From Dioscorea cayenensis subsp. rotundata (lineage: Eukaryota; Streptophyta; Magnoliopsida; Dioscoreales; Dioscoreaceae): DNA of 64,000 nt. Of the stretch, positions 34,084-64,000 are shown piece by piece. The position numbers were made by a program, and so were the translations under genes. Below the pieces are notes generated by a model. The model worked only from the letters and a program-made list of their open reading frames with translations. It searched no databases and had not been told where the DNA came from. The DNA is taken from contig NC_052474.1 in the NCBI RefSeq assembly GCF_009730915.1, forward strand, positions 3,259,501-3,323,500, read 5' to 3'. The first letter of the stretch is position 1, and each line of letters begins with the position of its first letter.

Positions 34084-34135
34084 GTTGCAAGCCTCATTTA
34101 GTCCCATATTGCCTAATTGAAAATGAGTTCATGTA

Positions 34136-34320
34136 TGTTAAGATAATGATGTTTATTTTAGTTTGGTTAGGATATCTTTGATTTAAAAATTTAAGTTAGT
34201 TGTGTGTTAATTAAAACTCAAATTAGTAGATATTATCTTTTTAGAATTTTGCCTTTATAAAGGCTTCAATGATTATGAATAAAGTGTGCAGTTTTTCTCA
34301 TCTCTTCTTTTAAGTTATCA
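34136..34320 (+). repeat. 5' LTR of the copia element
   Basis: 185 bp, TG...CA ends, with a TATA-like CCTTTATAAAGG. About 99% identical to the 3' LTR. Confidence 0.95.
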
Positions 34321-37300
34321 GTGGTATCAAGTGCCGAGGTCTTCAACAAAAGGGAGGGTTTTTTTGTAGTGAAGAAATTCACAATGTCTGCAGACAACTT
34401 TGTGCAACCATCTATTCCACGTTTTGATGGTCACTACGATCATTGGAGCATGTTGATGGAAAATTTTTTAAAATCCAAGGAGTATTGGAATATTGTTGAA
34501 TTCGGAGTAGTAAAACCTGATGTTGGAGTGGTACCTACAGAAGCACAACGGAAGGAACTTGAGGCATCAAAGTTGAAAGACTTGAAGGCAAAGAATTACT
34601 TATTTCATGTCATTGATCGATCTATTTTGGAGACGATTCTTTGCAAAGAAACCTCCAAGGATATATGGGATTCGATAAAGAAAAAATATCAAAGCTCATT
34701 AAGTGTGAAGCGTGCACAACTTCAAGCCTTGAGAAGAGATTTTGAAAATCTACAGATGAAGGATGGAGAATCTGTTAACAATTATTTTGCAAGAATCATG
34801 GGATTGGCCAATAATATGCGGTTTCATGGGGAGAAGATGGATGATGTCACTAATGTTGAAAAGATATTGCGATCTTTGACAGCAAAATTTGACTACATAG
34901 TTTGCTCAATTGAAGAATCAAAGGACATAGATGCACTCTCAATTGATGAACTTCAAAGCTCTCTATTAGTTCATGAATAGAAGATCAACCGTAATTTTAC
35001 TGCTGAGGAGAAAGCTTTGAAGCCCTCTACAACCAACAACTTCTCAATATTACGAGGTAGAGGTCGAGGTGGAAGTAGAGGAAGAGGAAGATCAGATAGA
35101 GGCTACAGAAGTGGCAACAGAAATACTGATGATGCTTATCTACAAAGTAAAGGAAGAGGACGAGGTCAACAATTTGATAAATCTAAAATTGAGTGTTTTA
35201 GATGTCATCGATTTGGTCATTACCGTTCTGAATGTTATACCAAGCTTCCTAATGACAAAGACAAAGGAGAAAAGTCAAATTGTGCAAAAAGTAAAGAAGT
35301 GGAGACTTTGCTAATGGCAATTTAAGATAGTCAAGAATCTCACAAGTCAGATATTTGGTTTATTGACACTGGTTGTAGCAACCATATGTGTGGAAGTAAG
35401 TCCTTCTTTTCTTACTTAAATGAAGATTTTCACTTTACTGTTAGTTTTGGAGATTGCTCTATGGTGAATGTGATGGGAAAAAGTGATATTAATATAAAAA
35501 CCAAGAATGGTTTTATAGAAAAAAATTCTAATGTTTTTTATGTTCCTGACTTGAAAAGTAACTTACTGAGTGTTGGTCAGTTGTAAGAAAAGGGATATAC
35601 AATTACTATTCAAAAGAGTACTTGTGAAATATATGATCCTTCTAGAGGTGCAATTGCAATTGTGCCGATGAAGTCAAATAGGTTGTTTCCTTTAAAGATT
35701 GAATGTGCTCAACCTTGTTTGAGGGCTAAAACAAAAGACCCTTCATGCCTATGGCATTATCGGTATGGTCACTTGAGCTATGGTGGATTGAAGACACTCC
35801 AAGAAAAGGATATGATGGTAGGGCTTCCTAAAATCACTATTCCCTCCCAAGTTTGTGAAGAGTGTGTTGCTGGAAAACAACATCGTACTCCTTTCTCTTA
35901 AGGAAAGTCTTGGAGAGCAAAAGATGTTTTAGAACTTGTTCACTCGGATATTTGTGGACCAATAAATCCTACTTCTAATGGAGGTGGAAGATATTTTATT
36001 ACTTTCACTGATGATTATTCTCTAAAAACTTGGCTTAGTTTTTACAGGAGAAATCAGAAGCTTTTAGTGCATTTAAAAGCTTCAAGGAATATGTTCAAAA
36101 TGAAATCGGGAAGCCTATTAAAACAATTCGCACTGATCGTGGAGGAGTACTGCTCGAAAGACTTTGAAAGTTTTTGTAATTATCATGGCATCTAAAGAGA
36201 GCTCACAACTTCCTATTCCCCACAACAAAATGGTGTATCAGAAAAAAAAAAAATCGAACCATCCTCAATATGGTGAGAACCTTGTTAACAAAGGGCAAAA
36301 TTCTAAAGAATTTTTGGCCAGAAGCAGTGAATTGGAGCATTCATATCTTGAATAGAAGTCCTACTTTTGCTGTTCAAAACAAAACACCAGAAGAAGCATG
36401 GAGTGGAAGAAGACCAGCAGTAGATCACTTCAGAATTTTTGGTTGCATTGCATAGAAAAGAAAGAAGCTTGATGATAAGGGGCAAACGTGTGTTTTTCTT
36501 GGGATTAGTGAAATATCCAAAACTTTTAAATTGTATGATCCATTAACAAAGAAAATTGTGATGAGTAGGGATGTTATTTTTTATGAGGAGAGCACTTGGA
36601 ATTGGAGTGAGCAGCAACCTACTTTAATTATAATTAGTGATGAAGCTGAAGAAGAAGGAAAGCAGGTCCAACATCAAGAAATTTCAACTAATGAATCCTC
36701 AATTACTACTAAACTTTCACAAACAGCAGCAGAGACATCAACTAAATCCCCTATTACTCATGTCCGAAAAAAGCCGGCTTGGATGGCAGATTATGAAGTA
36801 ACAGATTTCAACCAATCTGAAGACCTTGCTACCCACTTTGCTTTATTTTCAGATTGTGATCCTTTATCTTTTGAGGAAGCTATCCAACATTCAAAGTGGA
36901 AAAAATCTATGGATAATGAAATTGCATCCATTGAAAAGAATAAAACATGGGAATTGACTAAACTTCCCAAAGGGCAAAAAACAATTGGTTTAAAGTGGGT
37001 ATACAAAAAAAAATTAAACGAGAAAGGTGAGATTGACAAGTATAAGGCACGATTGGTTGCAAAAGGTTATAAGCAAGAATTTGGTATAGATTATAAAGAG
37101 GTCTTTGCTCCAGTTTCAAGGCTTGACACTATCAGGCTTGTGGTTGCATTGGCAGCTCAAAATTCATGGTTAACATTTCATGTAGATGTAAAATCGGACT
37201 TTCTACATGGAGAATTAGAAGAGCAGATATTTGTTGATCAACCTTTGGGTTTTATTAAAGCAGGGGATGGGCATAAAGTGTATAAATTGAAAAAAGCTTT

Positions 37301-38466
37301 CTATGGATTAAAGCAAGCTCTACGGGCATGGTATAGTCGCATAGAAGCTTACTTTTTAAAGAAAGGATTTTAGAAGTGCCACTATGAACATACACTCTTT
37401 ATGAAATTTGAAGCTGAAGGAAAGGTACGTATAGTTTGCTTATATGTGGATGACTTAATCTACACTGGCAACGACAAAGTGATAATTGAACAGTTTAAGA
37501 CTTCCATGATGATTGAATTTGATATGTCTGACCTTGGTTTCATGCATTACTTTCTGGGTATAGAAGTTATCTAATCTTCTTCAGGTATTTTTATTTCTCA
37601 AAAAAGATATGTGCATAATATCTTGACCAGGTTTCGAGTGGAAGATTGTAATCCGGTTTGTACTCCTGTTGAGATGGGTTTGAAGCTTGTTAAAAATTCA
37701 GAAGGAAACATGGTTAACAACACTTTTTACATGCAAATTGTTGGAAGTTTGATGTATTTAACTGCAACAAAGCCCAACATTATGTTTGGTGAAAGTCTCA
37801 TTAGTAGGTTCATGGAAAATCCAAAAGAGGTGCATTTCATGGCCGCAAAACGAATTTTGCGATACTTACAAGGAACAATAGATTATGGAATATTGTACAA
37901 GAAAGGAGAGATATCAGAACTAATTGGATTTACATATAGTGATTATTATGGAATATTGTACAAGAAAGGAGAGATTTAGATGATCGGAAAAGCACATCCG
38001 GTTATGTATTTATGATGGGTTTTGGAGCTATCTCATGGTCATCAAAGAAGCAACATATTATTACTCTTTCCACAACTGAGGCTGAATTTGTAGCTGCAAC
38101 AGCATGTGCCTCTCAAGCAATATGGTTAAGAAATATTTTTGAATAACTTCAATTAAAGCAAGAAGGTTCGACTCCAATATATTGCGATAACAGTTCAACT
38201 ATCAAGCTATCTAAGAATTCAGTTTTTCATGAAAGAAGCAAACATATTGACGTAAGATATCATTTCTTGCGAGATCTTACAAAGGAGAAAATTATTGATC
38301 TCATCTACTGTAGAAGCAAAGATAAGATTGCTGATTTATTTACAAAACCTCTCAAAATAGTTACTTTTCAGAAGCTTAGGGCATTGATCGGTGTATCTAG
38401 TATGAAAGCATTCATGCAAGAGAGATAACTTTAAACTTATGAGATAATCATAAGTTTAAGGGACGA

Positions 38467-38651
38467 TGTTAAGATAATGATGTTTATTTTAGTTTGGTTA
38501 GGATATCTTTGATTTAAAAATTTAAGTTAGTTGTGTGTTGATTAAAACTCAAATTAGTAGAGATTATCTTTTTAGAATTTTGCCTTTATAAAGGCTTCAA
38601 TGATTATGAATAAAGTGTGCAGTTTTTCTCATCTCTTCTTTTAAGTTATCA
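38467..38651 (+). repeat. 3' LTR of the copia element
   Basis: 185 bp, the same length as the 5' LTR, with two substitutions between them. Preceded by a purine-rich tract and followed by the ATGTA target duplication. Confidence 0.95.
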
Positions 38652-41870: not shown

Positions 41871-42455
41871 TTTGATATAATTTTATTTTATTAAAAATTA
41901 GATAGTATTAATCATGATTTTATAAATGAAAGTATTTAAAGTTTTAAAAGTAAATATGATTAAAATATCCATACATAATAGAACAATAAAGCACACCAAA
42001 ACTGAGTTAGAAAAAAAACACATGCCTTTTAGTCCAACTTTGTATATATTTTTTATTTTAATAAGTTGGGTTAGGTAAGTCAATCAAGCAAAGTGAACCT
42101 AAGTGACTTTTTTAGAGAAAAGTGAGGGCAGTACATTAAAACAAAGACCACTATTATTATACTTTTTTGTTTGGTTAATTAAAAATCAAATAGTATTAGT
42201 TATGATTTTATGGATGAAAGCATTTAACTTTTTAAAAGTAAAAATGATTAAAATAGCCATAGATAATAGAAGAATAAAGCACACCAAAACTGAGTTATGA
42301 AAAGAACACATGCCCTTTAGTCCAACTTTTTTACTATTTATTATTTTAATAAGTTGGGTTAAGTAAGTCCAGCAATCAAAGTAAGCCTATGTGACTTTTT
42401 TAGTGAAATGTGGGGAGTTACATTAGAACAAAGACCACTATTATTGTACTTTTTG
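41871..42455. repeat. Tandem duplication, period about 288 bases
   Basis: 41871-42158 and 42160-42455 are direct copies, clearly similar along their whole length (shared CACACCAAAACTGAGTTA, AATAAGTTGGGTTA, CAAAGACCACTATTATT). They have diverged by roughly 10-15% and are non-coding. Confidence 0.8.
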
Positions 42456-44036
42456 TTGTTGCTTTCCAGTAATATCTATCAGAATCAATTTTTTTCTATT
42501 TCTTTTTTTTAGGAATCAATTTGTTTTACATAATAATATTAATATTATTTATTTATAAATTATCTCAAGATATAGAGTTCAGACATAGTACCTCGCATTC
42601 AAACATGTATAGAAGATTGAAGTCTCCTCTCCCGTAAAGCAAGTTATCTATGTTTAGAAATAATAATGATAATAATAATAACAATAATAATAATAATAGT
42701 TTCCTTGTGTATGTTTAGAGAAGAACTTGGAATGATGTGAATTATATTCCGATTTATCAAACCAATTGAGGGGAAGCGAAAGTATGAGTTAGCTAGAAGT
42801 GTCTATTGGAAAGCAGAAGCAGTTGTATATATATACACATATTGATAGTTACAACACATAAAATTGAAAGAAAGAAGTTTTATATTTACTTACCTACTCA
42901 ATTTTTCTTCGAAAAATATGTTTTTAAAAGAAAAATTTGTATAAAAATGTTTGTAACTTTGTCAACAATTTATTGATATGTTGATATGAGTTAATCCTTA
43001 CGTAAGATGTTTATGTTTTTTTTTGAAAAAAAAATAGTTTAAAAATTAATTTCACATAAAGTAAGGACACATGTATATTAAGATAATAACTTTAAATTTG
43101 TACATGTCTTGACGGTATATGTTCTTAAAAAAAAAATCAAAATTTTATCTTAGAAAGACTTTTATTACAATGTTTTTTTTTCTTTATAAAAGATGCAATA
43201 AAATTAAAAAAAAAAAAAATCTGTTTTCTTCTAACGAACATTGTTAAATAGAATTACATGTCAACAGTTCATTTTATTGTAATTTTCCGTACATGGGAGA
43301 GGATAGACATGTGAAGGCCATTAACCTAAATCTTACCATTATCTTCTCTCTTATGCACAGCTTCTAATGCAAAAAAGACCCGTCTTTAAGGCACCACTGA
43401 TTTCTATTTCCAGCTTTTGATACGTTAATTGTATGTGTTTCATCAAACGATTCACAAACCAATAATCCATGCACTAAATAATATGAAAAATTATATTTAT
43501 ATATGTATAAATTTTTTTCTTCTTAATTACTATTAAAAATTTCATAATTTCACTCGCGGAACAAAACATCCCGCTACCGACGTGCATAATTAAACATAAA
43601 AAATAAAATAAAATAAAATATTCTATAATTCTTTCACGTTACAATTCCAAACATTCATGTAGCAAAAACCAAACACTCAACAGAAAAAGTTTTGCCTCAA
43701 TAGTTATAATCTATTATATTTATATAGGGGCCATTAATTATTTATAAACGTTCTACAATGAAAAGTACGATAAGACATTATTATAAATAGTTATACAATG
43801 CAAAATGTTATTAAAACTTTCTGATCACATTACAACGGGTGAAAGATTATTTACATTCCTTTGGAGTAAGAAAAAAATATAAATCACCCAATCAAACTCC
43901 GCGGACAATGGTTATGGTACTATTTATATGACTATTTAATTATTATTTATTTATTTACTAGATACAAGTAAACGCTAACAATAAAAGATACAAAAATTAT
44001 CATGCTATCAGTAATGATTCCTTTGATCCAAACATA
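42456..44036. other. AT-rich intergenic stretch
   Basis: Includes an ATA/AAT trinucleotide tract near 42660-42698. No gene seen. Confidence 0.5.
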
Positions 44037-44669: not shown

Positions 44670-46366
44670 TCAGTGACTAAACTCATAAAGCGTCGGAGGT
44701 AACCTAGGAGTTACCAGAACATCCAAAGTTTTATAAGAAATAATCCCAAGAGCTTCATTAATCTCCACAGGTTTATTCTCCGGTGTCTCCAAATGAAACC
44801 CTTGTAAGAAGCGAGCAAGCAACAAGTGCATCATTTGAAGTGCAAATGCATTCCCAGGACAACCAAACCTTCCTGACCTAAAAGGAAGGAGCTCATAATG
44901 CATCCCTCTAACATCAACTTCTGCATGCTTAGTTAGAAACCTTTCAGGCTTGAAAACCAGAGGATCGTCCCAAATGGCTGGGTCTCTTTGTATCTTCCAT
45001 ATGTTAACGGTGATGTGTGTACCGGTGGGAATGTAGTAGCCGCCAATTAGGCAGTCTTCTTTAGAGGCACGTTTGATTAAGCTGGATGACCCTGGGCATA
45101 GACGGAATGCTTCTTTGATCACTGCTTGCAGGTAGTGGAGGTTCTTCACATCAGAGTGATCCACCACTCTCTCTTTCCCTACCTCTTTATCTATCTCCTC
45201 TTGCACTTTCTTCAATATCTCACGGTGCTTTAGTAGCAGAGCTATTGCCCATGTTAGATAAAATGTTGTCGTATGTGTACCACCGAGAACCATTCCCTGT
45301 ATATATATAAATACACGTTCATATTCAAATCATATATATATATATATATATATATATGAACACATATTTATATTTTTAACCATGCAAGTAATTAATTAAA
45401 TACCCTACGTACCAAGCATGTAGCTTTGATGGCAGTGTCAGCATCGAACTCAAAGAAATTAGTATTTTTAGACATAGATAGCATAATATCCATGAAATCC
45501 TGGTCCTCAGTGACAGTACCAACCAGCTTGTTCTCCATTAACCTCCTCCTGGCTTTATGCTCCTCCAACAAGGTGGTCAATAAGGAATCCAGCTCCTTGA
45601 AAGCATTATTCATTACCTTCTTATGACCACCAAAATCAAACCAATCAAGAAAAGGAAACATATCAGAAGGCACAAACACACCAAGTGAACTTATAAGCCC
45701 AGAGATGGCTCGCCGGAACTTGCATGCCTCCTCGCTGTTCCCACCGGAACCATAGTATCTTTTCCCGGCGACAATCTGAAACACAACATTATAATTCAAG
45801 TCCCCCACCCACTTCAACAACTCCACCTTCAAAGTACTCCTCCCAATATTTATGAACTCAGAAAAGATTTCATGAATACAAAGATCGATCTCTTTGGACT
45901 GTGCCTGCTTGTGGGTTTCCAAGCAGGAGGTGGAAAGGAGCTCAGTGGTGACTATACGGCGGATGGTGCGCCAGTAAGGGCCGTAGAAGATGAAACCGAG
46001 GACGCCTTGGTTGTAAGCGAGGAGGCGGCCGGCGGTGGTGGCGGGTTTGGAGGACAGGGCTCTGTCGTTGGTGGTGTAGCATTCTTTGGCGATGTCGTAG
46101 CTACTGACGACGACGGTGCGGCATGAACCGAGGCGGAAAGCGAATACAGGGCCGAGTTGGTCGGCGAGCTCGGAGAGGACGATGGAGAGGAGTTTCTTGG
46201 ATTTTATCATTTGATGGAGATGGCCGATGATCGGGAGGGCGCCGGATGGCTCCGGCGGCTCTTTTTTGGATGCTAATTTGGTTCTGAGGAGTTTGCCGGC
46301 CCAAGCGTAGCTCAGGACGGCGACGATGAACAAGCCCAAGATCGACATAATTTCCGCCATGTCCAT
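44670..46366 (-). CDS. Cytochrome P450, CYP82-like, copy A, with unusual catalytic motifs
   Basis: Two exons, 46366-45413 and 45296-44670, phase 0 (TCL|GMVLGG); 526 residues. N-terminal membrane anchor (about 7-22), hinge PPEPSGALPIIGHLH, C-helix WRTIRR, ExxR E380-A-F-R383 and KPERFL are present, and the C-terminus has the CYP82-type LLARFLQGFHLETPEN. Two departures from the family: the I-helix reads GGTHTTT, with His326 where Asp/Glu is normal, and the heme loop reads FRSGRFGCPG, with Phe462 where the conserved Arg belongs; Cys464 is kept. Frame and splice sites are intact, so either the gene makes an enzyme with altered oxygen chemistry or it is losing function. The start ATG (MDMAEIMS) is the first in frame. 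Tandem paralogue of the gene at 51.5-53.2 kb. Confidence 0.9.
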
Positions 46367-48128
46367 CTTCCACACTCTCGAGATCTCTTGATTGTTTTTT
46401 TTCTTTCTTTGTTCACTGGTGCTACTAGTTAGTTTTTGTTTTTTGTTTTGTTTTTTTTTGCTTTTTTTTTTTATATATATTGGATTTGCATCATGTGGCT
46501 ACAATGTATTTATTTATGCATAATAGTGCAAAACAATAATATTATATTCTAACTGTACTCAATGTTTATATAAATAATAATAATTATTAAATAATGAGCA
46601 AACATCCTAGTGAACAATTTATATGGTCTAAAGATGATGATGTAGGTTAATATATATAAGACATATTAGGAATATTATATATTGACCTATTACTTTTGAA
46701 TAGTGTGATAGTATTTAATTTTTTCTTAATTTAAAATGTTAGGTTTAAATATCTTTAAAATCAGAATTTATGATTTATCTCTATTTATAAAAAAAATAAA
46801 AAACACTTAAAAATTGCTATTGGTTAGAAATGAAATAAATGAAAATCATTACTGACAATTAAGAAAAAAAAAACTTTAACTTTGCAAGGCTCTTTACTGA
46901 TCAATAATTGAGAAGTATACCTTTGTCATGTTGGTCCAAATCATCTGTGAGTAACTAATGCTTGAGAGACTACTCTCTATTATTATTTTAACATATGTCA
47001 TTTTACTCATTAAACTGTATTTTATATACTTTATTAAAAAATAAATAAATAAATGAAAGGAAAAAAAAAAGTGCGGTATAATGTTATTTCTATAGAGCCA
47101 GTCTTATATACAAATTTGCATAACGAAAAGCAAATTAGTTTGTACTGTTCTTTAAATTATAAAAAAATATTTTGTAATTTTTTTTCCAAGTCTTTTAACC
47201 ACCCCTTGGTTATGCATTGTAATTATTGACCGTAATAAGGCTGTTGTTACAACACATCACGAGGTTAAGAAGAAGCTAGCATGCATTTAAAACAAAAGAG
47301 CGCAAAAAGCTAAGTATAATTAAAACATATTTAACGATTTGTCACACTCATGTAACATGCATATCCATGTGACTTGTATCAACATCTCCACTATCAATAT
47401 ATATATATATATATATATATAAGATGACATAGAAGGCCACTGTTTATTAAAAAAAAAAAAGTAGAAGGCCACCATGGGTTTACCTAACACGCGCACAGAA
47501 CTGGCAAATCCGTTTCGCATCTTAATAATCATTACATCATTCAATTATTGGTATCCGAGTCAGACTTCACTATGGTCTATATACATATGGTCAATCTTGC
47601 TATTTTTGCCACATGTTTTTGACTAAGATTGATAGAGATAGTTGTACAATTGGAATAGCTAAATAATATGGCATAAAAGCACGAGGTGAAAGTTAAAAGT
47701 CTAAATATTTTTCTTGGCAGACTATTTTTATATTATTCATATTATACACATGAACCAATATAGTTTATGGGTACTGTTTATAGTCTAAATACGGGTCAAT
47801 TATGAGAAAAACGGTAATTTATTTTAAAATCGTTTGGCAGTTTATTAAATTTTAAAATAAAAATTCAAAATTTATTAAAATAATTAATCACCAACTGAGA
47901 TAGACTGCAGATCAAATTTATTTTACAAATCTTCGAACACAAGTTCATAATTTTTAGAAATTATTAAATTGTAAAAACAACGTCTTTAATGTTATTGCCC
48001 AATTCATTAGGAGAAAAATTGATTAATATTAATCTTCTTGTAGGTGACACCTCATTCCGTATTATATATATATCTACATAGATATGTTGTTCAACCAAAA
48101 TTATTACTCTGTTAAAAAGAATTTTTAT
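46367..48128. other. Upstream region of CYP82-like copy A and AT-rich intergenic DNA
   Basis: A pyrimidine-rich leader and a TATATATA tract lie 80-110 bases upstream of the ATG. Beyond it is low-complexity DNA with (TA)n at about 47397-47421. No gene seen. Confidence 0.5.
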
Positions 48129-48325
48129 ACAAATTCATTTTTTGCCAGCTCATAGAGCCAACATATATTCACAAAGAAAACAAGAGCGCAATATAAATAC
48201 TAATTAATCAAAGGCACATAAACACACAAAATGATACATGAAATTATCTTATCATCTCCCAATTTGCATTATAGTCTTTTAATTATCACAGACAACCACA
48301 TGATATATCCATTGTTAATTTAAAA
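48129..48325. repeat. Orphan copy of the 3' flank of CYP82-like copy B
   Basis: About 200 bases closely match 51287-51470 in the same orientation, including GCCAGCTCATAGAGCCAACA, CTAATTAATCAAAGGCACAT and CATGATATATCCATTGTTAA. The matching segment at 51.3 kb directly follows the stop codon side of the copy B gene. Here no P450 sequence lies next to it. Confidence 0.85.
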
Positions 48326-49516
48326 ATACAAAAAACAAAAAATTTATAAGTGTATATATATATATTAAATTTATATGTGATTTCCTTACCTCAAAGCTTT
48401 CAAATTCTAATTCACACTTGGTAACCAAAATCAAACCTAGCCTAAAAAAATATAAAATAGATTCTAATTACTCAGTAATTTTTCTAGTATAATACCATCG
48501 AATTTCTATGCCAAATTTAAGTCCACAGAATGCTTATCAGGAATCCCCCTAATAGAAAAACAATTCATTAGCCAAATTATTGTAACAGTGAAAAGGTGCC
48601 ACCTGTTATAATGAATATCCACCTATAAGACACTAGTTTTACTAGAGTTACAACCATGGCACATTACTTATAAATCAACGTGCATATGGTGTTAAAAGCA
48701 TGGAAAACCTGCCCCACTTACCAAGTACAATTATTCAATGAAATGACTGGATGATGCATGAAACACAATAAACAAAATAAAAGGAAGGCAGCTACATCTA
48801 AACTTTAATAGCATGTGATGTGAGAAGAAAAACTAAACCTATAAAGATAAACTAGATGCACGAGTATTTATCGGTTGGGACAAAGTTATCATATGGTGAT
48901 CACATCTATACTGAGATGCAGAGAATGAAATTATGAGGTTGGACACACTAATGGGAAACACTAGAAGAAAAAAAAGACATATGCTAACAAGACAGCCATA
49001 TCATTGAGAAATTAAAAAGCTATGAACTAAATCAAAGCAACATGAAACTTCGAAACAATCAGATCTACCCCAAAAATATATAGAATTCTTGGCAACTCCA
49101 GAACGAACAAACCTGAAATCAAGGAAACTTCAATTCTTACAGATTAGGAATAGAATCAAATCAAAAGCAATGCCATGACCCATAGCTATAATCATCCCCC
49201 AAACCAGACAAATCAAGCACGAAAAGAAATAAAAAAGAATGAGGCAGCAATACCAAGCACCACCATTACTAACCAGCACTAGCAGATAGGTTTAATTATT
49301 TGGATCAGGAACACATTTGGATTTGGAGAAGATACCGAGACATAAAAATAGGTAATCAGGGACTGGAGGTTGACAGCTATCGTGGCTCACAATAGGATAA
49401 GACTGCATTAACAATAGGAATTTGAACAGAAAATTATCCTTTTTGTTAAGGGGAAAAAAAATTTCAATGGTCAACATTAAATGTGGCTAGGGTTGCATTT
49501 AACTTTTGTAATTATA
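48326..49516. other. Intergenic stretch without recognised gene
   Basis: Less AT-biased than its surroundings and free of obvious repeats, but no long frame or RNA gene is supported on either strand. Confidence 0.45.
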
Positions 49517-49538
49517 CATATTACTGTAATTATATAAC

Positions 49539-49572
<34 letters not shown>

Positions 49573-49885
49573 GGTAAAAAGCCCCTAAGGATGTTTATAG
49601 ATATTCAAATCTACAAATTAAAATCCATGGTGATAATAATAGCCTAATCAATTTTAACCGTCTTATTCTATTTCTACTAGCATCTATAATTAAAATAAAA
49701 CATATTACTGTAACTATGTAACACAATATATATATACCGGGGGGCGGCTGCGGCTGCGGCGGCTAAAGATGTTCATAGATATTCAAATCTACAAATTGAA
49801 ATCCATAGTGATAACAATAATTTAATCAATTTTAACTGTCTTATTCTATTTCTACTATCATCTATAATTAAAAAATAAAACTAAA
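49517..49885. repeat. Tandem duplication (period about 184 bases) with a GC-rich insert
   Basis: Copy 1 is about 49517-49695 and copy 2 about 49701-49885; both contain CATATTACTGTAA, AACACAATATATA, GATATTCAAATCTACAAATT and GTCTTATTCTATTTCTACTA. In copy 2 the segment after the TA tract is replaced by a GC-rich CCGGGGGGCGGCTGCGGCTG run (49738-49763), where copy 1 has an AT-rich AAAGGGTAAAAAGCCCC. Confidence 0.8.
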
Positions 49886-50349
49886 CCTTAGAGCAACTTA
49901 TTAACCTATTGTTATTGGGTATAACGATTGAGTTACTATTTAAAGTGCTGATGATTTCTCTCTCTACGGCCACTTTGTACTCTGTCTCTCTCTAACTCAT
50001 ACTCTCTCACTTTTTCATATTTGTGAATGTCCAAAAAGACTTAATCTCATATAAATATAGATATAAATATCACTATTTCTGGAGGTAAATTTTTTTTGTG
50101 TTCATCTGACTTTAGTTTTATCTCAAATCGGTCACCGAATTTTAATTTAAATCAATTTGGTCACCTTTCTTTCATTTAATTATACCGGCATGTCACTGCC
50201 CAATTTCCTAATCCCCTTTGCTTATGTGGCAGTCGGAGAAGTCCATTCATCCTCTCCACGTCAGCAATGGGTGGACACGCCAACAACTAATGCCACATCA
50301 CTTTAAATGGGGCCACATCAGCCTCATCTTCTTCCCCATTTCACCACAT

Positions 50350-50615
50350 AACTTGAAAGAAAACCACAGCCTGGTCATCAAAGCTGTAGACTTCGTTATC
50401 AAAAGCAATGTTGTCTTCCTCACAGCAGCTTTCTCATCCACGCACCTCCTCCTAAGCAACTCCACAAAACCTGAATGCTAAAAAGCCATCACTTCAATTT
50501 GTTAAGCTTATTAGCATCCATGGAGAACACACAAATCACCTATGCTATGTTGGTCAATGCCTGTTCTTGAATTGCTCCTATAGAATCTGAACATCGGCTC
50601 ACCAATGCCTCCAAA
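50350..50615 (-). pseudogene. Captured fragment resembling condensin-2 subunit D3 (CAP-D3)
   Basis: Within the Mutator-like element the minus strand reads LEALVSRCSDSIGAIQEQAL followed by TNIA. After a splice-acceptor-like ttttagcattcag it continues LLRRRCVDEKAAVRKTTLLL then ITKSTALM. This is HEAT-repeat sequence and, from memory of the family, fits plant CAP-D3. The frame is interrupted by a stop (TNIA-stop). Family recognition is by eye only. Confidence 0.5.
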
Positions 50616-50739
50616 CAATTCATTACCCAATCATCCTCAAACTAACTAGCAATATTTTATCCAATCAAACTGAAAATACTCAAAAAAACAGGGAATAAAA
50701 TCTAAAGATTTGAATCACTGATCACAAAAGCAAAGCAAG

Positions 50740-50790
50740 GATTTGATGGTAGTCTGCGAACGCCTCTCCAAACTTCATTCCCGCATAGGA
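50740..50790 (-). pseudogene. Possible second captured fragment (gene start region)
   Basis: The minus strand reads MKFGEAFADYHQILALLL then stop, after a pyrimidine-rich leader. The first residues resemble an SPX-domain or similar N-terminus, but the fragment is too short to name. Confidence 0.2.
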
Positions 50791-51489
50791 AGAGGAGAAA
50801 CAACAATGGCGGATCGATTAATAGAGAAAGGAAGCAAAATCCTAAAAAAAGATAAATGGAGAAGAGGAGCAAAAATGGGGAAGAAGATGTAGCTGATGTG
50901 TTAGATGTGCCATTAGTTGTTGACATGTCCACCTACTGCTGACATGGAGACTCCAACTAAGAATATTGAGCTGGCAATGGACTGCCACATAAATAAAGGG
51001 ATCAGAAAATTAAATAGGGACTTGCTGGGGTAACTAAATTAAAGAAAGATGACTAAATTGATTCATTGAAATTCGATGACTGATTTGAGATAAATTAAAT
51101 TAAAAATTAGATGACCATCCAAAAAATTTACCCCTATCTCTGGATTCCGAGAATAAACATTTGAGCATAGATTGGTGACACGTCATACCTCATCGTTTAG
51201 TTATTTATACAGTACTGCTACTGTATTATATATATATATAACGAATATTGTCACACTCTTTGAAAGACTCTTTAGACAAGTTCATCTTGTGCCAGCTCAT
51301 AGAGCCAACATATATTCACAAAGAGAACCGGAGCTCACAAGATATATACTAATTAATCAAAGGCACATAAACACATAAAATCATACATGAAATTATCATC
51401 TCCCAATTTGCACTATAGTCCTTCTAATTAACACGGACAATCACATGATATATCCATTGTTAATTTTAAACTGCAGGCCTTTGTGTTCC

Positions 51490-53186
51490 TCATAATACAT
51501 AAAGCGTTGGAGAAAGCCGAGGTGTGAGCATGACTTCCATGGACTTGACATTCAGCAAACCCAAAGACTGGTTTATCTCAACCGGCACCTTCCCAGGAGT
51601 CTCCAAATCAAAGGCTTGGATCAGGCGAGTCATAACCAGATCCATCACTTGAATGCTGAAGGAGCCCCCAGGGCATGCCCTCCTCCCTGCTCTCAATGGC
51701 AACAATTCATAGTGCTGTCCTCTCACGTCAATGCCTTTATGGGTCGTCAAGAACCTCTCAGGCTTGAACTCCAATGGATCAGGCCATACAACTGGATCTC
51801 TCTGCACCTTCCATACATTCACTGCAACATAGTATCCTTTGGGGATATGATATCCAGAGATCTGGCAATCCTCAGATGCTTCACGAGAAACCATTAGTTC
51901 TCCAGCAGGGCAAAGCCGGAACGCCTCTTTAACTACCGCCGACCAGTAAACAAGGTTCTTGATGTCAGACTGTTCTACAAGCCTTTCCTTCCCAACCTTT
52001 TCATCTATCTCCGATCTCACCTTGTCCATCACCGGCCTGTTGTTCAGCAGCAACGCCAACGTCCATATCAAGTATAACGTTGTTGTATGTGTCCCACCCA
52101 TTATCATACTCTATAAGCATGCATGCATGCATGCATGCATTTGATAATTAATTAGTAACAAGATTTATATATATATATATATAGAATAAAGAAAATAATT
52201 AAAAAAAAACATTGATTGATTACCAGGCAAGTAGCTTTGGTGACGGTATCTTGATCATACTCGGAGAACTCGGGATCATCCATAGCTGTTAACACGACGT
52301 CCATGAAGTCAAGATCATCACTTTCTTTTCTAAAAAGCCTTCTTTGCTTGTGATCCTCGAGCAAAGCACTCAAGACAGAGTCTATGTCTTTGAAAGCAGA
52401 TCTCATTACCTTCTTATATCCACCAAAATCAAACCATTTAAGAAAAGGGAACATGTCACCGGGGATAAAAGCTCCGACGAGCCGAACAAAATCTCTGAGC
52501 GCCTTACGGAACTTGAAAAAGTCCTCAGAGACGACGCCGCCATTTCCAGAGCGGAAATATAGTTTGCTAACAATCATATCAAGAACTACATTGTAATTGA
52601 TATCTCCCAACCAGCTCATCATCTCAACCTTGATGGGTTGCATGTTATTGGATGTGTATTGAGAGAAGAGACCCTTGATACAAATGTAGACTTCTTTGAT
52701 GACGACGCGGCTGAGAGCATTGAGGTGGGAGTTGGAGAGGAGTTCGGTGGTGGCGATGCGGCGGACTGCGCGCCAGTAAGGGCCGTAAGGGGCGAAGAGG
52801 ATCATGCTGCGGTTGTAGCCCATGAGGTCGCCGATGGTGCTGATGGGTCGGTTAGAAAGGGCCTTGTCGCAGGTGGTGAAGGAATCTTTGGCGGTCTCAC
52901 TGTTGCTGAGGATGACGATGCGGCGAGAGCCAACGCGGAGAGTGAAGATGGGGCCGAGCTCGTCGGCGAGGTCGGCGAGGTAAAGGACTAAAGAGCGGCG
53001 GCGTTTGAGGAGGTGGAGGTGGCCGATGATGGGTAGTGCGCCGGAAGGTTGTGGAGGTTCTTGAAGATGTGATTTTTTCTTGTTTGATATTTTGTTTGAT
53101 ATTAGTAATGAGAGTTTGCAGAGGAAAAGGATGGTGAACAGGCCTCCTATCATTGATGATGCTATTTGCAGGAAATCCATTTTCAT
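51490..53186 (-). CDS. Cytochrome P450, CYP82-like, copy B, with unusual catalytic motifs
   Basis: Two exons, 53186-52224 and 52110-51490, phase 0 (TCL|SMIMGG); 527 residues. Membrane anchor about residues 8-28, hinge PPQPSGALPIIGHLHL, C-helix WRAVRR, ExxR E383-A-F-R386, KPERFL, and CYP82-type RLIQAFDLETPGK near the end. Like copy A the I-helix is GGTHTTT (His329 for the usual acid). The heme loop is LRAGRRACPG: the conserved first Phe is Leu460 while Arg465 and Cys467 are kept. The intron sits at the same place as in copy A, so the two are tandem duplicates. It is divergent from the CYP85-clan gene, start codons 805 bases apart. Confidence 0.92.
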
Positions 53187-53991
53187 TCTCTTGATACTTA
53201 CATGACTTTCAGGCTTTACATGTTCGGAATATATAACAGGTAGGATACTTGGGAAGAAGGGTAACTAACGGATGAATAAAAGAACGGTGAAGAGTTTGCA
53301 GGATATTTGTTTAATTAAATTTTTTTTTTTACTATAAAGAAATATATATATTTTTTTATGTTAAAAATTTGACATTTTTCATGGAATTTTCCCCACTATC
53401 TAGTAGAGAACTCATTTCGCACACACTCAACGCCTTGTGGGCCAATTTAAAGCTAAAAAGCAAGGAAATAATATAAAGTCACATCAGGCATGCTTGCTAA
53501 ACAGTCACGCACGAGAAAATGTTCTTGCTAGTTGCTCTATCCAATAGATTAAAATAAGAAAAGTGGTGAGCCTGATAAAGTCACTTGCTAGTGCTGATCT
53601 GACAAAAACACATTTTCTTTTTTCTTTTTTTTTTTTTAAAAACATGATTAGTTTGAAATAGATTTGAAATTACAATATTGGAAGTAACTGCTGATTCTCA
53701 GAGTGTGATTACTGATAATGATCCATAAAGAACATCGGTCAAGAGCTATGTCTAATTACCCAAACCAAAAACCCTCCCAAGAAATTTAATTCTACTACAC
53801 ATACTTGATTATATTCCAAAATTCCACTTCATCTACTGGTGTTTCTTCTACCTAACGATTAGTACCAAACATCCTCATCTTTCCAAAGCTTTCCAAGTTA
53901 TGAGTCACAACTGATAAGGTGCATCTATCCACTCTCCATATATAAGCCTGCAATAACAAGAGGAACATCAGCGGTGAATCAGAGAAGAGCA
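53187..53991. promoter_or_regulatory. Shared divergent promoter region between CYP82-like copy B and the CYP85-clan gene
   Basis: The 805 bases separate two head-to-head start codons. A TATATAAG at 53938-53945 lies about 50 bases before the plus-strand ATG at 53992. A TATATAT on the minus strand near 53229-53237 lies about 45 bases before the minus-strand ATG at 53186. The arrangement would allow co-regulation. Confidence 0.6.
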
Positions 53992-55966
53992 ATGGTTTTC
54001 TCATTGCTAATCACAGCCATCCTGGCCATCGTTGCAGCCAAGACACTTAAAGAATATCTAAAGATAAGGCATTCCAATATCCCATCGGCAAACATGGGCT
54101 GGCCTCTCATCGGAGAAACACTCTCCTTTGTGAAGGCTCACCCAGCTTTCACCTTAGGGGATTACCTGCAACATCACATAGCAAAGTTCAAACTCCCTCT
54201 GCATCACTATCCTCTCTTTTAATTGACTAACATGTATGAAATTAGCTCAAGAGAACTGCATTGTATGCAGGTATGGGACGGTATTCTGGGCAAACATCTT
54301 TGGAAAATGGTTGATACACTCGGTAGACCCTGAGCTGAACCGATTTGTTGTGAACAATGAGATGAAAATGTTCAAGCAAGGTTGGCCACGGTCCCTCTCT
54401 AGGCTTATAGGTAACAATGCGCTGACCATATCTCTAGGGGATGCTCATAAGCGCCGCAGAGCTGAGGTGCTGAACTACCTCAGTGGCAGCAGGCTGGAGA
54501 GTACGTTCCTCAGAGACATGGAGCAGATAGCATCAGCTCACATGGAATCATGGAGGAACAGGGACATGGTCATTGCTACTGATGAAACTCGAAAAGTACG
54601 TGTTTATGTCCGTAATTTTTTTATATGCTTGCTTTCAAGGCTCTAATGATTGTCTTATGCCAGTATGCGTTCTACATGATAGCGAAGAAAGCACTAAGCA
54701 TGACACCAGGATCACCAGAGACAGAGAAGTTGATGGAGGCTCTCAATGACATCTACATGGGGATTGGTTTGATTTATGTTAATTTCCCCGGAACCAGATT
54801 TCGAAAGGCTTTACAGGTAGCTAGTTGATTATGTCGTGTTTCTTGTTTGGAGATTGGATTTTCAAGATTTGTGATTGTGGTTTATTGAATGCAGTCCAGG
54901 GCCTATGTTCAAGAGGTCATCAGACAGAAATTGGAACAAAGAAGGCTAAAGGACCAGGAGGATGACGACTTCCTCAACTATCTTATTAAGGACGGCACAT
55001 ACTCAACTGAAGAAATGGGAGATCTGGTGCAAAACTTCATCTTTGGAGGCAACGAAGTGATTGGAAGGACTTTGGCTGCAGCTATTTACTACCTTGGAAC
55101 TTGTCCTCAAGCGTGCGACCAACTACGGGTAAAATGAACTAATTTTGTTGTGTGTCTGTGTGTGTGTGTGTGGAACAAACTGCTAACATGATTGGAAATA
55201 TTCAGGAGGAACGTCTCCAAGTTATTAAATCCAAGCAACAATCTGGAGACTCTAGTTTAACATTGAGTGACTACCGAGGAATGGAATTTACTCAATGTGT
55301 AAGTTCAGGTTTCTTATTGTGCACACCTATAAAACAAAATTTGTAAATCATACCTTTTACAATATGATTTCTGAAGGTTGTGAATGAGACGCTGAGACTA
55401 GGTACTGTTTCCAGATTTCTACATAAGGTCGCCACTGCAAATATCCAGTATAAAGGTGGTATCAAGCTTAACTACTTTGATTTTTAGACTGTAAAAATTA
55501 TAAGTTAGTTCAATGTGATAATTAATTACCAGGATATGTCATTCCCCGTGGTTGCACGGTCATCGCCAATATCTCTGCAATGCATTTGGATCCAACTGAG
55601 TTTAAGGACCCCGAAACATTCAATCCATGGAGATGGCTGGTGAGGCTTTTCATGCATTAGTTTATTCCTTCATCTGTCATTGAATGAACTATCATGGTTT
55701 TACTGTTGATACATTCATCTCGCTATGTTTACACGTAGACCCCAAATGGTGTGAAGAAATCAAGAAGTTTCATGCCTTTCAGCGGGGGTGCGAGACACTG
55801 TATAGGAGCTGAACTTGCCAAGCTGGAGCTGATGGTATTCATTCACCAGCTGGTTATGAAATATGAGTGGGAGTTTGCTCAAAATGACCCCCCAATGGCT
55901 ACTCCTCGTCTTGAGTTCCCCAATTGTCTGCCCATCAAAATCAGAGCCATTTCACCAAAGTTATAA
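53992..55966 (+). CDS. Cytochrome P450, CYP85 clan (CYP90/CYP724-like), unusual I-helix
   Basis: Eight exons: 53992-54185, 54271-54595, 54664-54816, 54895-55128, 55206-55298, 55377-55455, 55533-55639, 55739-55966, all phases consistent; 470 residues. Multi-exon structure and motifs are of the CYP85 clan: MGWPLIGETLSFVKAHP near residue 40, NETLR (ExxR E337-R340), FNPWRW in place of PERF, heme loop FSGGARHCIG with Cys416, and ELAKLELMVFIHQLV. Clan members act on sterols, brassinosteroids or triterpenoids. By eye it sits nearest CYP724/CYP90 but is diverged. Oddity: the I-helix reads FGGNEVIGRT, so the conserved ETT is E278-V-I and the catalytic Thr is lost. The first donor (gcaaa|gttcaa) is weak but required for the frame. 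Confidence 0.9.
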
Positions 55967-56178
55967 GCATTTCTTGTGCATCTAATCTTTCCACCAGCAG
56001 TTAATAAATAATAAACTCGTTTGAATGCCAACAAAATGGATTTGATGCACAAAAAAATGTTGAACAGGATACTTTGCTTGAATCATATCATATTACTTTT
56101 GTATCAGCTTTCAATTTGCTTTCATGAAGGACCTTTCCAATTTTTAAGGAAGAGAATTGGATCAGTGTAAATCAATAT

Positions 56179-57738
56179 TCACAAGTTGAATTCAGTGTCC
56201 AATCCTCTTTCTCTCATCATCATTCTCACCGTCTCCACATCTTCCAGTCTTCCAGCATTCCTGTATATCCTCATGAGCAACTCAAAGTTGTGCTCATTAT
56301 CAGGCTCCAGCTCAAACAATCTCTCTGCTGCAACCTCTCCAATAGTTACATTCCCATGCACTGAGCAAGCATACAACAGAGCTCCCCAAACCCTCGGCCC
56401 TCCATCAAAAGGCATTGTTTTTGCCATTTCATAAGCTTCATCAACAAGCCCTGCTCTACCCAACATATTCACCATGCACCCATAATGCTCCATCCCTGGG
56501 GCTATCCTGTATTTCTTCTTCATTTTGTTAAACAACCTCCGGCCAGAATCCACCATTCCCAGATTTGCACATGATGAAAGCAAGGACACAAATGTCACCC
56601 GGTCCGGCTGCACACCAGAGTCTTCCATTTGCTTGAATATGTTAATGGCCCGACAATCTTTCCGGTGAACTGATATCATTGTATTCCAAGTAACCAAGTC
56701 TTTCTCCGGCATTGACTCGAACACTATTCGAGCACATCGCAATTGTTTGTGTTCAGCATACATTGCAATCAGTGCATTGGCAATGGACAAGTTCCATTCC
56801 ATCCCTTGTCGGAGAACCCATCCATGAATCTCATATCCAAGCTTTCTGTTGAATGAGAACTTTGCAAGCATTGTGGAGATGGCGATCGAGTTTGGTTCAA
56901 GCCCGGCAGCAAGCATACCTCTACAAACGTCCCACGCCTCACGCGCCAGCCCGTGATGCGCATAACCCGTCAACATGGAGTTCCAAGACACAGAGTCACG
57001 GTCGGGAATAACGTCGAACACCTTGCGTGCTTTCACAATGTCGCCACACTTGGCGTACATATCCACAAGCGCGTTAAGCACGAAAACGTCACGGCCAAGC
57101 CCAGAGCGAACAGCGTGCCGGTGCACGTCTTCGCCGTGCTGTATCGACCCAATACCCGCACAAGACTTGAGAACGCGCGGGAAGGTGAAATCATCGGGCT
57201 GGACACCGTCCTCAACCATCTGATAATACAAAGCCATGGCGTCTTCATAGAGGCCTAGCTCCGCGTACCCGGAGAGGAGCGAGTTCCACACGAACGAGGA
57301 CTTATTTCTCTCGGGCATTTCGTCGAACATGCGATGGGCTCTATCGACGAAGCCACAAGAGGCATAAAGACGGAGGAGTTTGGAGGAGACGCCAGCGTTG
57401 CGGCGAAGGAGGGAGCGGGGGATGATACGGTGGAGGCGAACGCCATGGGAGAGGGACCGCATGCGTGCGCATGTCTCAAGGAGGGAGGAGAAGATGGAGG
57501 GGTCGACCTTGATGCCATTGTCGATGGAGGCCTCGAGCTCGGCAAGGACGTGGTCGAGGGCCTGTTCGCGGGTGAGGCGAAGTGGGGTTGGAGAGATGAA
57601 CAGCGGCGAAGGAGAGGACTTGGGGTACGAGAGGGTGTGAAGGTTCCGGCGTTTCAGGGAGTGCTTTTCTTTGGATTTCTTCGAGCTGGGCTTCGTTTTG
57701 AGCGTAATGCGGAGCAGTGAAATGGGAGGGGCTTCCAT
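56179..57738 (-). CDS. OTP70: PLS-class pentatricopeptide repeat protein, OTP70-like
   Basis: Intronless, 519 residues. The N-terminus is basic and serine-rich (MEAPPISLLRITLKTKPSSK), a likely plastid transit peptide. PPR units run from about residue 85, for example FVWNSLLSGYAELGLYEDAM, YVLNALVDMYAKCGDIVKAR-like and SVSWNSMLTGYAHHGL, followed by an E domain (PRVWGALLYACSVHGN, ELEPDNEHNFELL) and no DYW domain. Sequence and architecture match Arabidopsis At4g25270 (OTP70), a chloroplast protein needed for rpoC1 intron splicing; the same role here is inferred by orthology. The ATG at 57738 is the first in frame; codons upstream are open but lack an ATG. Confidence 0.92.
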   Translation of the reverse strand: MEAPPISLLRITLKTKPSSKKSKEKHSLKRRNLHTLSYPKSSPSPLFISPTPLRLTREQALDHVLAELEASIDNGIKVDPSIFSSLLETCARMRSLSHGVRLHRIIPRSLLRRNAGVSSKLLRLYASCGFVDRAHRMFDEMPERNKSSFVWNSLLSGYAELGLYEDAMALYYQMVEDGVQPDDFTFPRVLKSCAGIGSIQHGEDVHRHAVRSGLGRDVFVLNALVDMYAKCGDIVKARKVFDVIPDRDSVSWNSMLTGYAHHGLAREAWDVCRGMLAAGLEPNSIAISTMLAKFSFNRKLGYEIHGWVLRQGMEWNLSIANALIAMYAEHKQLRCARIVFESMPEKDLVTWNTMISVHRKDCRAINIFKQMEDSGVQPDRVTFVSLLSSCANLGMVDSGRRLFNKMKKKYRIAPGMEHYGCMVNMLGRAGLVDEAYEMAKTMPFDGGPRVWGALLYACSVHGNVTIGEVAAERLFELEPDNEHNFELLMRIYRNAGRLEDVETVRMMMRERGLDTEFNL

Positions 57739-58502
57739 GGCGATCCACCAAATGGAGCCATTCACTCCTGGATAACATCATATGCAGGAGGGTCCATTAT
57801 AAGAGCTTCTGAAAATATTATCTGTGATCTTTATCTTTAGGAAAAACAAAAAATTAAATATGAATTAAATAAATTTATATTAAATAATTTACCATTTTCT
57901 ATGGTTAACATTTAATTGAAAAATCCACTGGCAGTGGCCACCCCTTATTAGTTGTTACATGCTTACATTAAGAATATATTTGGGAAATATTAATTATTTA
58001 ATATTTATTTATAAATTATAATTATAATAAATATATAGATTACGTTATTTGCAATATATATATATATATATAGACATTAAAAAACTATATTTTTATCATT
58101 AATCATTAGAACCAATAAAAGGATATTCTACATTTTGAAAATATAAAATAAGAAAATATTCTTAAAATGTTTATTTAATAGAATTACTAAATATTGATAA
58201 AGTTAATGTTAAATCACAATGGAAGAAAATAATAATAATTAAAAACCAACCCATTCCAAAATAAAAGAACCATTTGACGGAAGAAAAAAAGAATTATTTA
58301 ATTTTCATCAATATATGAAATGAGTAATAATTCACTAAAATGAAATATTGTGCACGATTCATTTTTTTAAACCACAGAATTCAACTGTGGAATTTTTGGA
58401 CATTGAATGGTCTCGCTGTTCCTTATTTGTATTGGCAGGTATGGTAAAAGACAATAATGTAGGCATTAAAGCATGAAGAACTCCTTCCTTAATTCTTGCA
58501 CA
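57739..58502. other. AT-rich intergenic stretch
   Basis: Promoter side of the PPR gene and 3' flank of the kinase gene, with (TA)n near 58056-58071. No gene seen. Confidence 0.5.
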
Positions 58503-62510
<4,008 letters not shown>

Positions 62511-63418
62511 CGCCGCCTCCGGTGATCTCTTCTCTTCGGCTTCTCAGATCGTCACTTCTCGATCTCCACTGGCACCTCTCTCTTCTTCTTCCTTGCAGGT
62601 TTTTTCTGGCGCTCCTGTTTTAAGGGCTTTTTTCTTTCTCACCCCCTATTGATCATCAAAATTATATTTATCTACATTCCTCATTTTTCAGCTCAGTCCC
62701 TCATTCTAAATTAAAATAGGATTGAAAACTTTTATAATTAAAGTTAAATATAAATTTTCAAATGGATTATATTATCATTTTCAGCAGTCATCTGGAAAAT
62801 TAGTTTTTTTTTTTTAGCGGATGTAGTCCTCGCAGGGAAAAAACCGGAGTTGGAGCACTAATCAAAAGTGGTTAGAAAGAGCCAAAATCAATTGCTAACA
62901 TGTAAACTAAGCCTGTGGGTACACTTGGGTAGAAGAGTCATTAGACTACATGTATCGACATGCTCTTTTATTTATTGATAGTCTCTGTATTAGTATTTTG
63001 TTTTTGTATTTTGTTTTTATTTTATGTTTCAGCTTTCGCACTTTGCGGATATATTTTCTATTTAATATTTATTTATATTTGTTTTTTAATAAATTTGTGA
63101 ATTAATTTTTTTATAAAAAATAATTATCATTTACAAATAATACTCTTCGATAGGAAAATATAAAATATAAAAGAAATAAATATGGAAATTCACATGGAAG
63201 CTGTTATAATTATTTGATTAATGTCGATAGACCTTGAGGTAATAAGCATTATTTGTTAAAATTATAGTTATGCATCATTTATGGATCGAGATGAATAAAC
63301 AACAATTAATGTGTGAAAAATAAGGCACTAATATAGTGACTGACCTCAACATGTGGCGGTGGAGTCACACAACAATGATTGAGGCATGTCACATTAAAAA
63401 AAAAAAAAAAGTACTTTG
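62511..63418. other. Intergenic stretch between kinase and UGT genes
   Basis: Kinase 5' UTR with CTTCTT repeats (about 62520-62600), then AT-rich DNA and a poly-A run near 63394-63409. No gene seen. Confidence 0.55.
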
Positions 63419-64000
63419 TCAGTCGGATTCGTTTCCCAGAGCGTTTCCGCCAGACATGGCTCTGCAAGTGATAAGCTCATCAATCAGACGGCTGAGATCT
63501 GCATAGGAGGATCCACCCTTCCTCATCGCGGCACGTGCCATCTTCGCATACTCCTTATAAGCACTACGCCTCCTCTCCTCCGCTTCATCTCCGCCGCTCA
63601 TCACCAGCGTCACCGCCACCGCCACCTCGTCCGCTCCAACCAACACGGTTGGATCCCACAACTCCCCTCTCACTCGCACGCCAAGCCTCACCACCTTATT
63701 CAAGAACTTCTCATTCACGAACTGCTCATACGTCAGCGGCCACGTCACCATCGGCACTCCAGCCGAGATCCCCTCCAACGTGGAGTTCCATCCGCAGTGC
63801 GTCAAGAACCCACCAATCGCCACGTGTCCCAATATCAACAACTGCGGAGCCCACCCTCTGATGACCAACACCTTCATGCCAACCATCTCTTCAAGCCTCG
63901 CCGGCGGCGGCTGCACCGAGTCCCCTCTCACTGCCCAAACGAACCAACACCCAGAAGCCTCAAGCCCTAACGCCAACTCCTTCACCTGATCACTCGAAAT
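63419..64000 (-). CDS. UDP-glycosyltransferase, UGT73-like, C-terminal part (5' end beyond window)
   Basis: The minus-strand frame enters from the right edge as ISSDQVKELALGLEASG and runs to a stop at 63419 (about 193 residues). The PSPG box is present: WAPQLLILGHVAIGGFLTHC then GWNSTLEGISAGVPMVTWPL, ending with the residues YEQFVNEK. The wording of this box and of FVNEKFLNKVVRLGVRV fits UGT73-type enzymes, cytosolic transferases that glycosylate flavonoids, terpenoids or steroids. In UGT73 the residue after the NEK-type end is usually Gln or similar for UDP-glucose. The segment is GC-rich relative to its surroundings. Its position 7.5 kb from the P450 block may or may not be functional. Confidence 0.9.
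   Translation of the reverse strand: MSSDQVKELALGLEASGCWFVWAVRGDSVQPPPARLEEMVGMKVLVIRGWAPQLLILGHVAIGGFLTHCGWNSTLEGISAGVPMVTWPLTYEQFVNEKFLNKVVRLGVRVRGELWDPTVLVGADEVAVAVTLVMSGGDEAEERRRSAYKEYAKMARAAMRKGGSSYADLSRLIDELITCRAMSGGNALGNESD

Follow-up and report, generated by a model that had tools for sequence, protein, structure and literature searches.

A cytochrome P450-rich neighbourhood in Dioscorea cayenensis subsp. rotundata with a CYP90-like gene head to head with one of two CYP82-like genes

We analysed a stretch of 64,000 nucleotides of the Dioscorea cayenensis subsp. rotundata genome (assembly GCF_009730915.1, contig NC_052474.1, positions 3,259,501 to 3,323,500), hereafter called the window. 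A span of 20 kb at its right-hand side, between 44.6 and 64 kb, harbours three intact cytochrome P450 genes, two of them CYP82-like and one with eight exons, together with a UGT73-like glycosyltransferase gene of which the window includes the 3' part (Table 1). The explanation that we favour, with about even confidence, is that this block is a P450-rich neighbourhood comprising an old CYP82-like pair and a CYP90-like gene for specialised steroids, rather than a demonstrated pathway cluster. The original prediction, made from the sequence, had listed the two CYP82-like genes, a divergent P450 of the CYP85 clan and the UGT73-like gene within these 20 kb, and all were recovered at the expected places. 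The present analysis adds to it the assignment of the eight-exon gene to CYP90, the head-to-head layout of that gene with its CYP82-like neighbour and the atypical sequences that the P450s have in helix I and at the haem.

In a search of all PDB chains, the product of the eight-exon gene has CYP90B1 as its best match (E-value 9e-128), and the next protein type is taxadiene 5-alpha-hydroxylase (3.1e-44). It is identical to Arabidopsis CYP90B1 (DWF4; PDB 6a15-6a18) at 189 of 435 positions (43.4%), which, together with the PDB match, narrows its identity from the CYP85 clan to CYP90. By convention, P450s sharing more than 40% identity belong to one family and those sharing more than 55% to one subfamily. 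The protein lies above the family line, in a borderline position, and well under the subfamily line of CYP90B, of which CYP90B1 is the only member compared. It retains the ExxR (ETLR), PERF-type NPWRW and FxxGxRxCxG (FSGGARHCIG) motifs and shares with CYP90B1 the FTQCVxNETLRLG and RFLH stretches. The sole piece of this gene scanned with Pfam, an exon open reading frame (ORF) at positions 54236-54646, matched no family. No relative of the protein was found in viral contigs, either by protein search or by an alignment search of 92 pattern-matching stretches. The 189 pattern-matching stretches from bacterial and archaeal genomes included a single relative, a bacterial P450 at 21% identity, which was set aside.

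The CYP90-like protein departs from the usual helix-I motif, (A/G)Gx(D/E)(T/S). It has FGGNEV where FAGHET is usual (GGNEV as against AGHET of CYP90B1), with the threonine replaced by valine. We then compared regions, including the substrate-recognition stretches, whose boundaries were drawn by hand on the alignment of the two proteins. Compared with the overall identity of 43%, the best conserved are the K-helix (11/12 residues identical) and the haem loop (14/19), and the most altered are helix I (9/27, with 3/11 in its core), the B-C loop (8/30) and the F-helix region (4/21). Thus, the protein resembles CYP90B1 in its K-helix, NPWRW and haem motifs but differs from it strongly in its helix I, B-C loop and F-helix region. 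Because these last three have changed while the fold and the haem motifs are kept, the substrate or chemistry of the enzyme has probably become that of a specialised steroid oxidase. The gene would then be a CYP90 paralogue that turned from brassinosteroid synthesis to the oxidation of specialised steroids.

The second exons of the CYP82-like genes gave Pfam p450 matches of 1.6e-57 (left copy) and 8e-54 (right copy), with intact frames in both cases. The two proteins are 50.8% (BLAST) to 52% (MAFFT) identical; as the copies share only about half of their residues (about 51%), the duplication must be old. Substitutions between them amount to 0.38, 0.24 and 0.55 at codon positions 1, 2 and 3, respectively, and the ratio of nonsynonymous to synonymous rates (dN/dS) is about 0.22-0.29, a rough sign of constraint since dS is near saturation. 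Constraint seems to have acted on the two copies over much of their history. They are putative CYP82 proteins, on the basis of the original prediction and of stretches typical of CYP82; no CYP82 is among the eight PDB sequences listed for either copy. CYP82 enzymes are stated to be absent in monocots (PMC5787835) or to occur primarily in dicots (PMC10981884). If the plant is taken as a monocot, the label of CYP82 and the statement of absence (PMC5787835) cannot both hold.

Unusual motifs are also present in the CYP82-like proteins. Helix I reads GGTHTTT in both copies, whereas two aligned homologues have Asp and Glu at the position of the His. The haem loop of the left copy, FRSGRFGCPG, is devoid of the R at position 6 of FxxGxRxCxG, and that of the right copy, LRAGRRACPG, is devoid of the F at position 1. 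Similarly, the FxxGxRxCxG motif is reported as missing from two of 12 CYP82s in cucumber (PMC10981884). A 223-bp repeat, 86% identical to the sequence that flanks the right copy on its 3' side, lies between the two genes and may be the relic of a third tandem CYP82-like copy that was lost. A tblastn search of the window with five of its proteins yielded no third CYP82 coding copy; all hits were to genes already known or weak matches of one P450 to another. Just downstream of the right CYP82-like gene, a stretch of ~980 bp (50117-51094) has inverted ends (50117-50234 versus 51094-50980, 80% identical) and is probably a DNA transposon.

The right CYP82-like gene (start at 53186) and the CYP90-like gene (start at 53992) diverge from each other, and their start codons are separated by 805 bp. 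There is a TATA-type site ~50 bp upstream of each ATG. The intervening region is AT-rich, with 10 TATA-type hits versus 4.3 expected. A scan of this region for 11 motifs, with 500 mononucleotide shuffles for comparison, revealed no convincing enrichment of any of them (lowest P 0.034, uncorrected), and a single W-box was found (1 versus 0.80 expected). The head-to-head layout makes common regulation of the two genes possible.

We propose that the core of the block is the old CYP82-like tandem pair, one copy of which and the intact CYP90-like gene are arranged head to head. The CYP90-like enzyme would be descended from a lineage of sterol side-chain (C-22/C-16) hydroxylases. The CYP82-like enzymes would oxidise a lipophilic specialised metabolite, possibly, though not necessarily, that of the CYP90-like enzyme, and the right copy may be co-expressed with the CYP90-like gene by way of the 805-bp region. 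The UGT73-like and CYP76-like genes are most likely close by through chance. The block is also interrupted by a PPR gene and a nucleotide kinase gene, which we count in favour of a mere neighbourhood.

A combination of one CYP90-family and one CYP82-type P450 is also found in the fenugreek pair CYP90B50/CYP82J17, which together with a reductase makes diosgenin in cholesterol-producing yeast (PMC6642093), and the fenugreek CYP90 and CYP82 genes both answer to one WRKY factor (PMC12504280). That pair came from functional screening, physical linkage being unmentioned in the passages of the source that we draw on, whereas the genes described here are known from their sequences alone; in addition, CYP90B50 arose by a recent duplication of CYP90B in legumes (PMC6642093). 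CYP90 paralogues start diosgenin synthesis in both Paris and fenugreek (PMC6642093). They differ from the CYP90Bs of brassinosteroid synthesis at nine positions, four of which are near the catalytic centre, including two near the oxygen-activation site (Christ et al., PMC6642093). The monocot CYP90G proteins (Paris CYP90G4 and Dioscorea CYP90G) are CYP90 paralogues outside CYP90B with reported changes near the oxygen-activation site, features that the present protein seems to share, but their partners are CYP94D or CYP72A enzymes (PMC6642093). In Dioscorea zingiberensis, CYP94D144, CYP90B71 and CYP90G6 are said to form a cluster that includes CYP90 genes of steroid metabolism, in passages that give no map; the partner there is a CYP94, with no CYP82 (PMC11177481). 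Among the papers listed by our literature searches, judged by titles and the openings of abstracts, we found no report of a physically linked CYP90/CYP82 pair.

To determine how often such a block would arise by chance, we used a binomial model with assumed rates of 1-4% for P450 and UGT genes taken together, in which tandem copies are counted once in a genome of 25,000 units. P450s alone represent around 1% of plant protein-coding genes (PMC8340902). The model gives random expectations of 0.25-15 occurrences per genome for three enzyme units among five neighbours and of 0.08-17 for four among the 11 units of the whole window. These values are rough, as the selection of the block was post hoc and the model disregards that genes of these classes cluster regionally, an effect that would increase the expected numbers. 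As delimited by its coordinates, the block is not exceptional genome-wide. Of the 20 proteins or pieces picked from the ORF lists for a Pfam scan, 13 matched a family; no scaffold-forming enzyme was found among the 20, although a gene made of short exons only could escape such a scan. The plantiSMASH rule calls for three or more enzyme subclasses, drawn from two or more classes, at one locus (PMC5570173). With the CYP82-like copies, 51-52% identical, forming one group at the 50% cut-off, a count by hand of subclasses and classes only would find that number in the CYP82-like group, the CYP90-like protein and the UGT. By this count the block would resemble plantiSMASH-defined clusters, but it differs from them by having no scaffold enzyme among the scanned proteins. 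Under the same rule, three plant genomes with recent amplification have 68, 76 and 88 candidate loci, and the co-expression test was passed by 11 predicted Arabidopsis clusters (PMC5570173).

Some observations speak against our preferred explanation of a neighbourhood with a specialised CYP90-like gene. If the CYP76-like gene is included and the transposons are ignored, there are four enzyme units among six, for which the expectation is 0.00-0.90 per genome, and chance is therefore an uncomfortable explanation of that count. Furthermore, enzymes of the CYP90 class and of the UGT73 class are alike reported to take part in making steroidal saponins (PMC9917158), and this speaks for a shared pathway. 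Finally, the start of the G-helix (9/17 residues identical to CYP90B1), the K-helix/beta1-4 stretch (7/15) and the C-terminal loop (7/14) are not among the altered regions. As three of the six substrate-recognition stretches are thus conserved no worse than the whole protein, the pocket is unevenly affected by the change of substrate.

Several other explanations can be put forward; the odds that we give to all of them overlap and need not add up to one. The CYP90-like and right CYP82-like genes might by themselves form a module for two consecutive steroid oxidations under a common promoter region, with the other genes as bystanders. The divergent starts, with a TATA-type site before each ATG, and the cooperation (PMC6642093) and shared WRKY response (PMC12504280) of the fenugreek pair are consistent with this idea, which overlaps with the co-expression that we envisage ourselves; we nonetheless consider it rather unlikely, given the lack of convincing motif enrichment in the 805-bp region, the W-box at its expected number and the fact that fenugreek CYP82J17 need not be near these CYP82-like genes. 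We are more doubtful still of a true small steroidal pathway cluster, in which the CYP90-like enzyme would act on C-16/C-22 of cholesterol, the CYP82-like enzymes on the end of the side chain and the UGT73-like enzyme would add a sugar. Such a pathway would agree with the diosgenin obtained in yeast with the fenugreek enzymes (PMC6642093), with the reported activity of UGT73CR1 on diosgenin (PMC9917158) and with the plantiSMASH count (PMC5570173). However, that rule is an inclusive one (PMC5570173), no scaffold enzyme was found among the scanned proteins, two housekeeping genes lie within the block, the UGT is incomplete and retroelement pieces separate the CYP76-like gene from the rest.

Another explanation would deprive the CYP90-like gene of its specialised role: it would be either a diverged CYP90B or a CYP724, with an ordinary function in brassinosteroid synthesis and an unremarkable location. 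Its identity within the family, the kept FTQCVxNETLRLG and RFLH stretches and the three substrate-recognition stretches conserved no worse than the whole go in that direction, but 43% identity to CYP90B1 is under the customary subfamily line of 55%, and loss of the helix-I AGHET is unexpected in a conserved hormone enzyme; we find this explanation improbable. Lastly, the P450s with altered motifs might be decaying or catalytically dead copies, in keeping with the helix-I Val of the CYP90-like protein, the His at the helix-I acid position of both CYP82-like proteins, the FxxGxRxCxG motif broken once in each of the latter and what may be the relic of a third copy. Frames of full length, splice sites without damage, a divergence biased to third codon positions and the reported haem-motif deviations of two of the 12 cucumber CYP82s (PMC10981884) make this very improbable. 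The most far-reaching proposal, to which we give very little credence, is that of a linked and co-regulated CYP90/CYP82 module for steroid oxidation with one 805-bp divergent promoter, whose CYP90 would work without the helix-I threonine and whose two CYP82-type enzymes would work with a His at the acid position; the fenugreek-type diosgenin pair would then have been put together a second time, independently, in the form of head-to-head genes.

Were the CYP90-like and CYP82-like enzymes to act in sequence on one sterol, they would represent a second, physically linked case of a pairing that we otherwise know from fenugreek only, and they would provide a handle on the repeated origin of steroidal saponin pathways. 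The altered oxygen-activation motifs would in turn probe how much drift of the acid/alcohol pair is tolerated in working P450s. As it stands, the locus is a modest candidate.

Table 1. Features of the block and related genes, in window coordinates
Feature	Position	Strand	Details
CYP82-like P450, left copy	44670..46366	-	exons 46366-45413 and 45296-44670, 526 aa
CYP82-like P450, right copy	51490..53186	-	exons 53186-52224 and 52110-51490, 527 aa
CYP90-family P450	53992..55966	+	8 exons, 470 aa; PDB match CYP90B1
Intergenic upstream region common to the right CYP82-like copy and the CYP90-like gene	53187..53991	.	805 bp
PPR protein with E motif, housekeeping	56179..57765	-	Pfam scan of ORF
UMP-CMP/adenylate kinase-type gene, housekeeping	59700..62550 (extent approximate)	-	exon pieces and Pfam ADK
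UGT73-like glycosyltransferase, 3' part, cut by window end	63419..64000	-	Pfam UDPGT, PDB matches
CYP76-like P450	26990..28666	+	exons 26990-27913 and 28019-28666, 523 aa
86% copy of the 3' flank (51255-51470) of the right CYP82-like gene	48106..48325	-	possible relic of a lost third copy

All four P450 gene models have GT-AG introns throughout and are devoid of internal stops. The GC content at third codon positions is 0.45-0.70 across eight gene models or pieces, which seems rather high for a eudicot. Neither an Rfam family reaching its gathering score nor a tRNA was found anywhere in the window, and a search of a plasmid collection with the 44.6-64 kb stretch gave zero matches.

The part of the UGT gene analysed (63419-63985), which is open to the window edge, matches Pfam UDPGT (7.3e-16). 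Its named PDB matches include UGT73AM30 (9.9e-41) and UGT73C1 (2.3e-37), the top match being 6lzx (6.5e-47), titled just 'Glycosyltransferase'. It also contains what we take to be the PSPG box. The two housekeeping genes that the original prediction had placed between the P450 genes and the UGT gene are indeed present as a PPR ORF and a nucleotide kinase gene; the names OTP70 and UMK1 are those of that prediction only. The kinase matches Pfam ADK (1.1e-45) through exon pieces at about 59.7-61.4 kb, its first exons being outside the model.

The CYP76-like gene, also foreseen by the original prediction, is intact and lies 16 kb to the left of the block. The best PDB matches of its product are ferruginol synthase and sugiol synthase (about 6e-98). 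It has a canonical haem loop, FGSGRRICPG, and its helix I reads AGTDSS, with a Ser at the position of the Thr, as in isoflavone synthase. A piece with a zf-RVT domain, presumably of the long interspersed nuclear element (LINE) type, and a Ty1/copia-type element (RVT_2) are located between this gene and the rest. The Ty1/copia-type element spans positions 34135-38651, and its insertion is recent, as its terminal repeats (34135-34320 and 38466-38651) are 98.9% identical. Closer to the block, a tandem duplication of ~285 bp (41887-42457) has copies that are 87% identical.

Additional genes were recognised in the left-hand part of the window. Helicase-type fragments with AAA_11 and DUF6469 domains are found on the minus strand at positions 3-1377, reaching the left window edge. 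An UNC-93-like transporter gene (8789-9991) adjoins a GIL1/IRKI-type DUF641 gene (11140-12447), and a plus-strand ORF at positions 22734-23276 codes for a DUF565 domain (1e-17).

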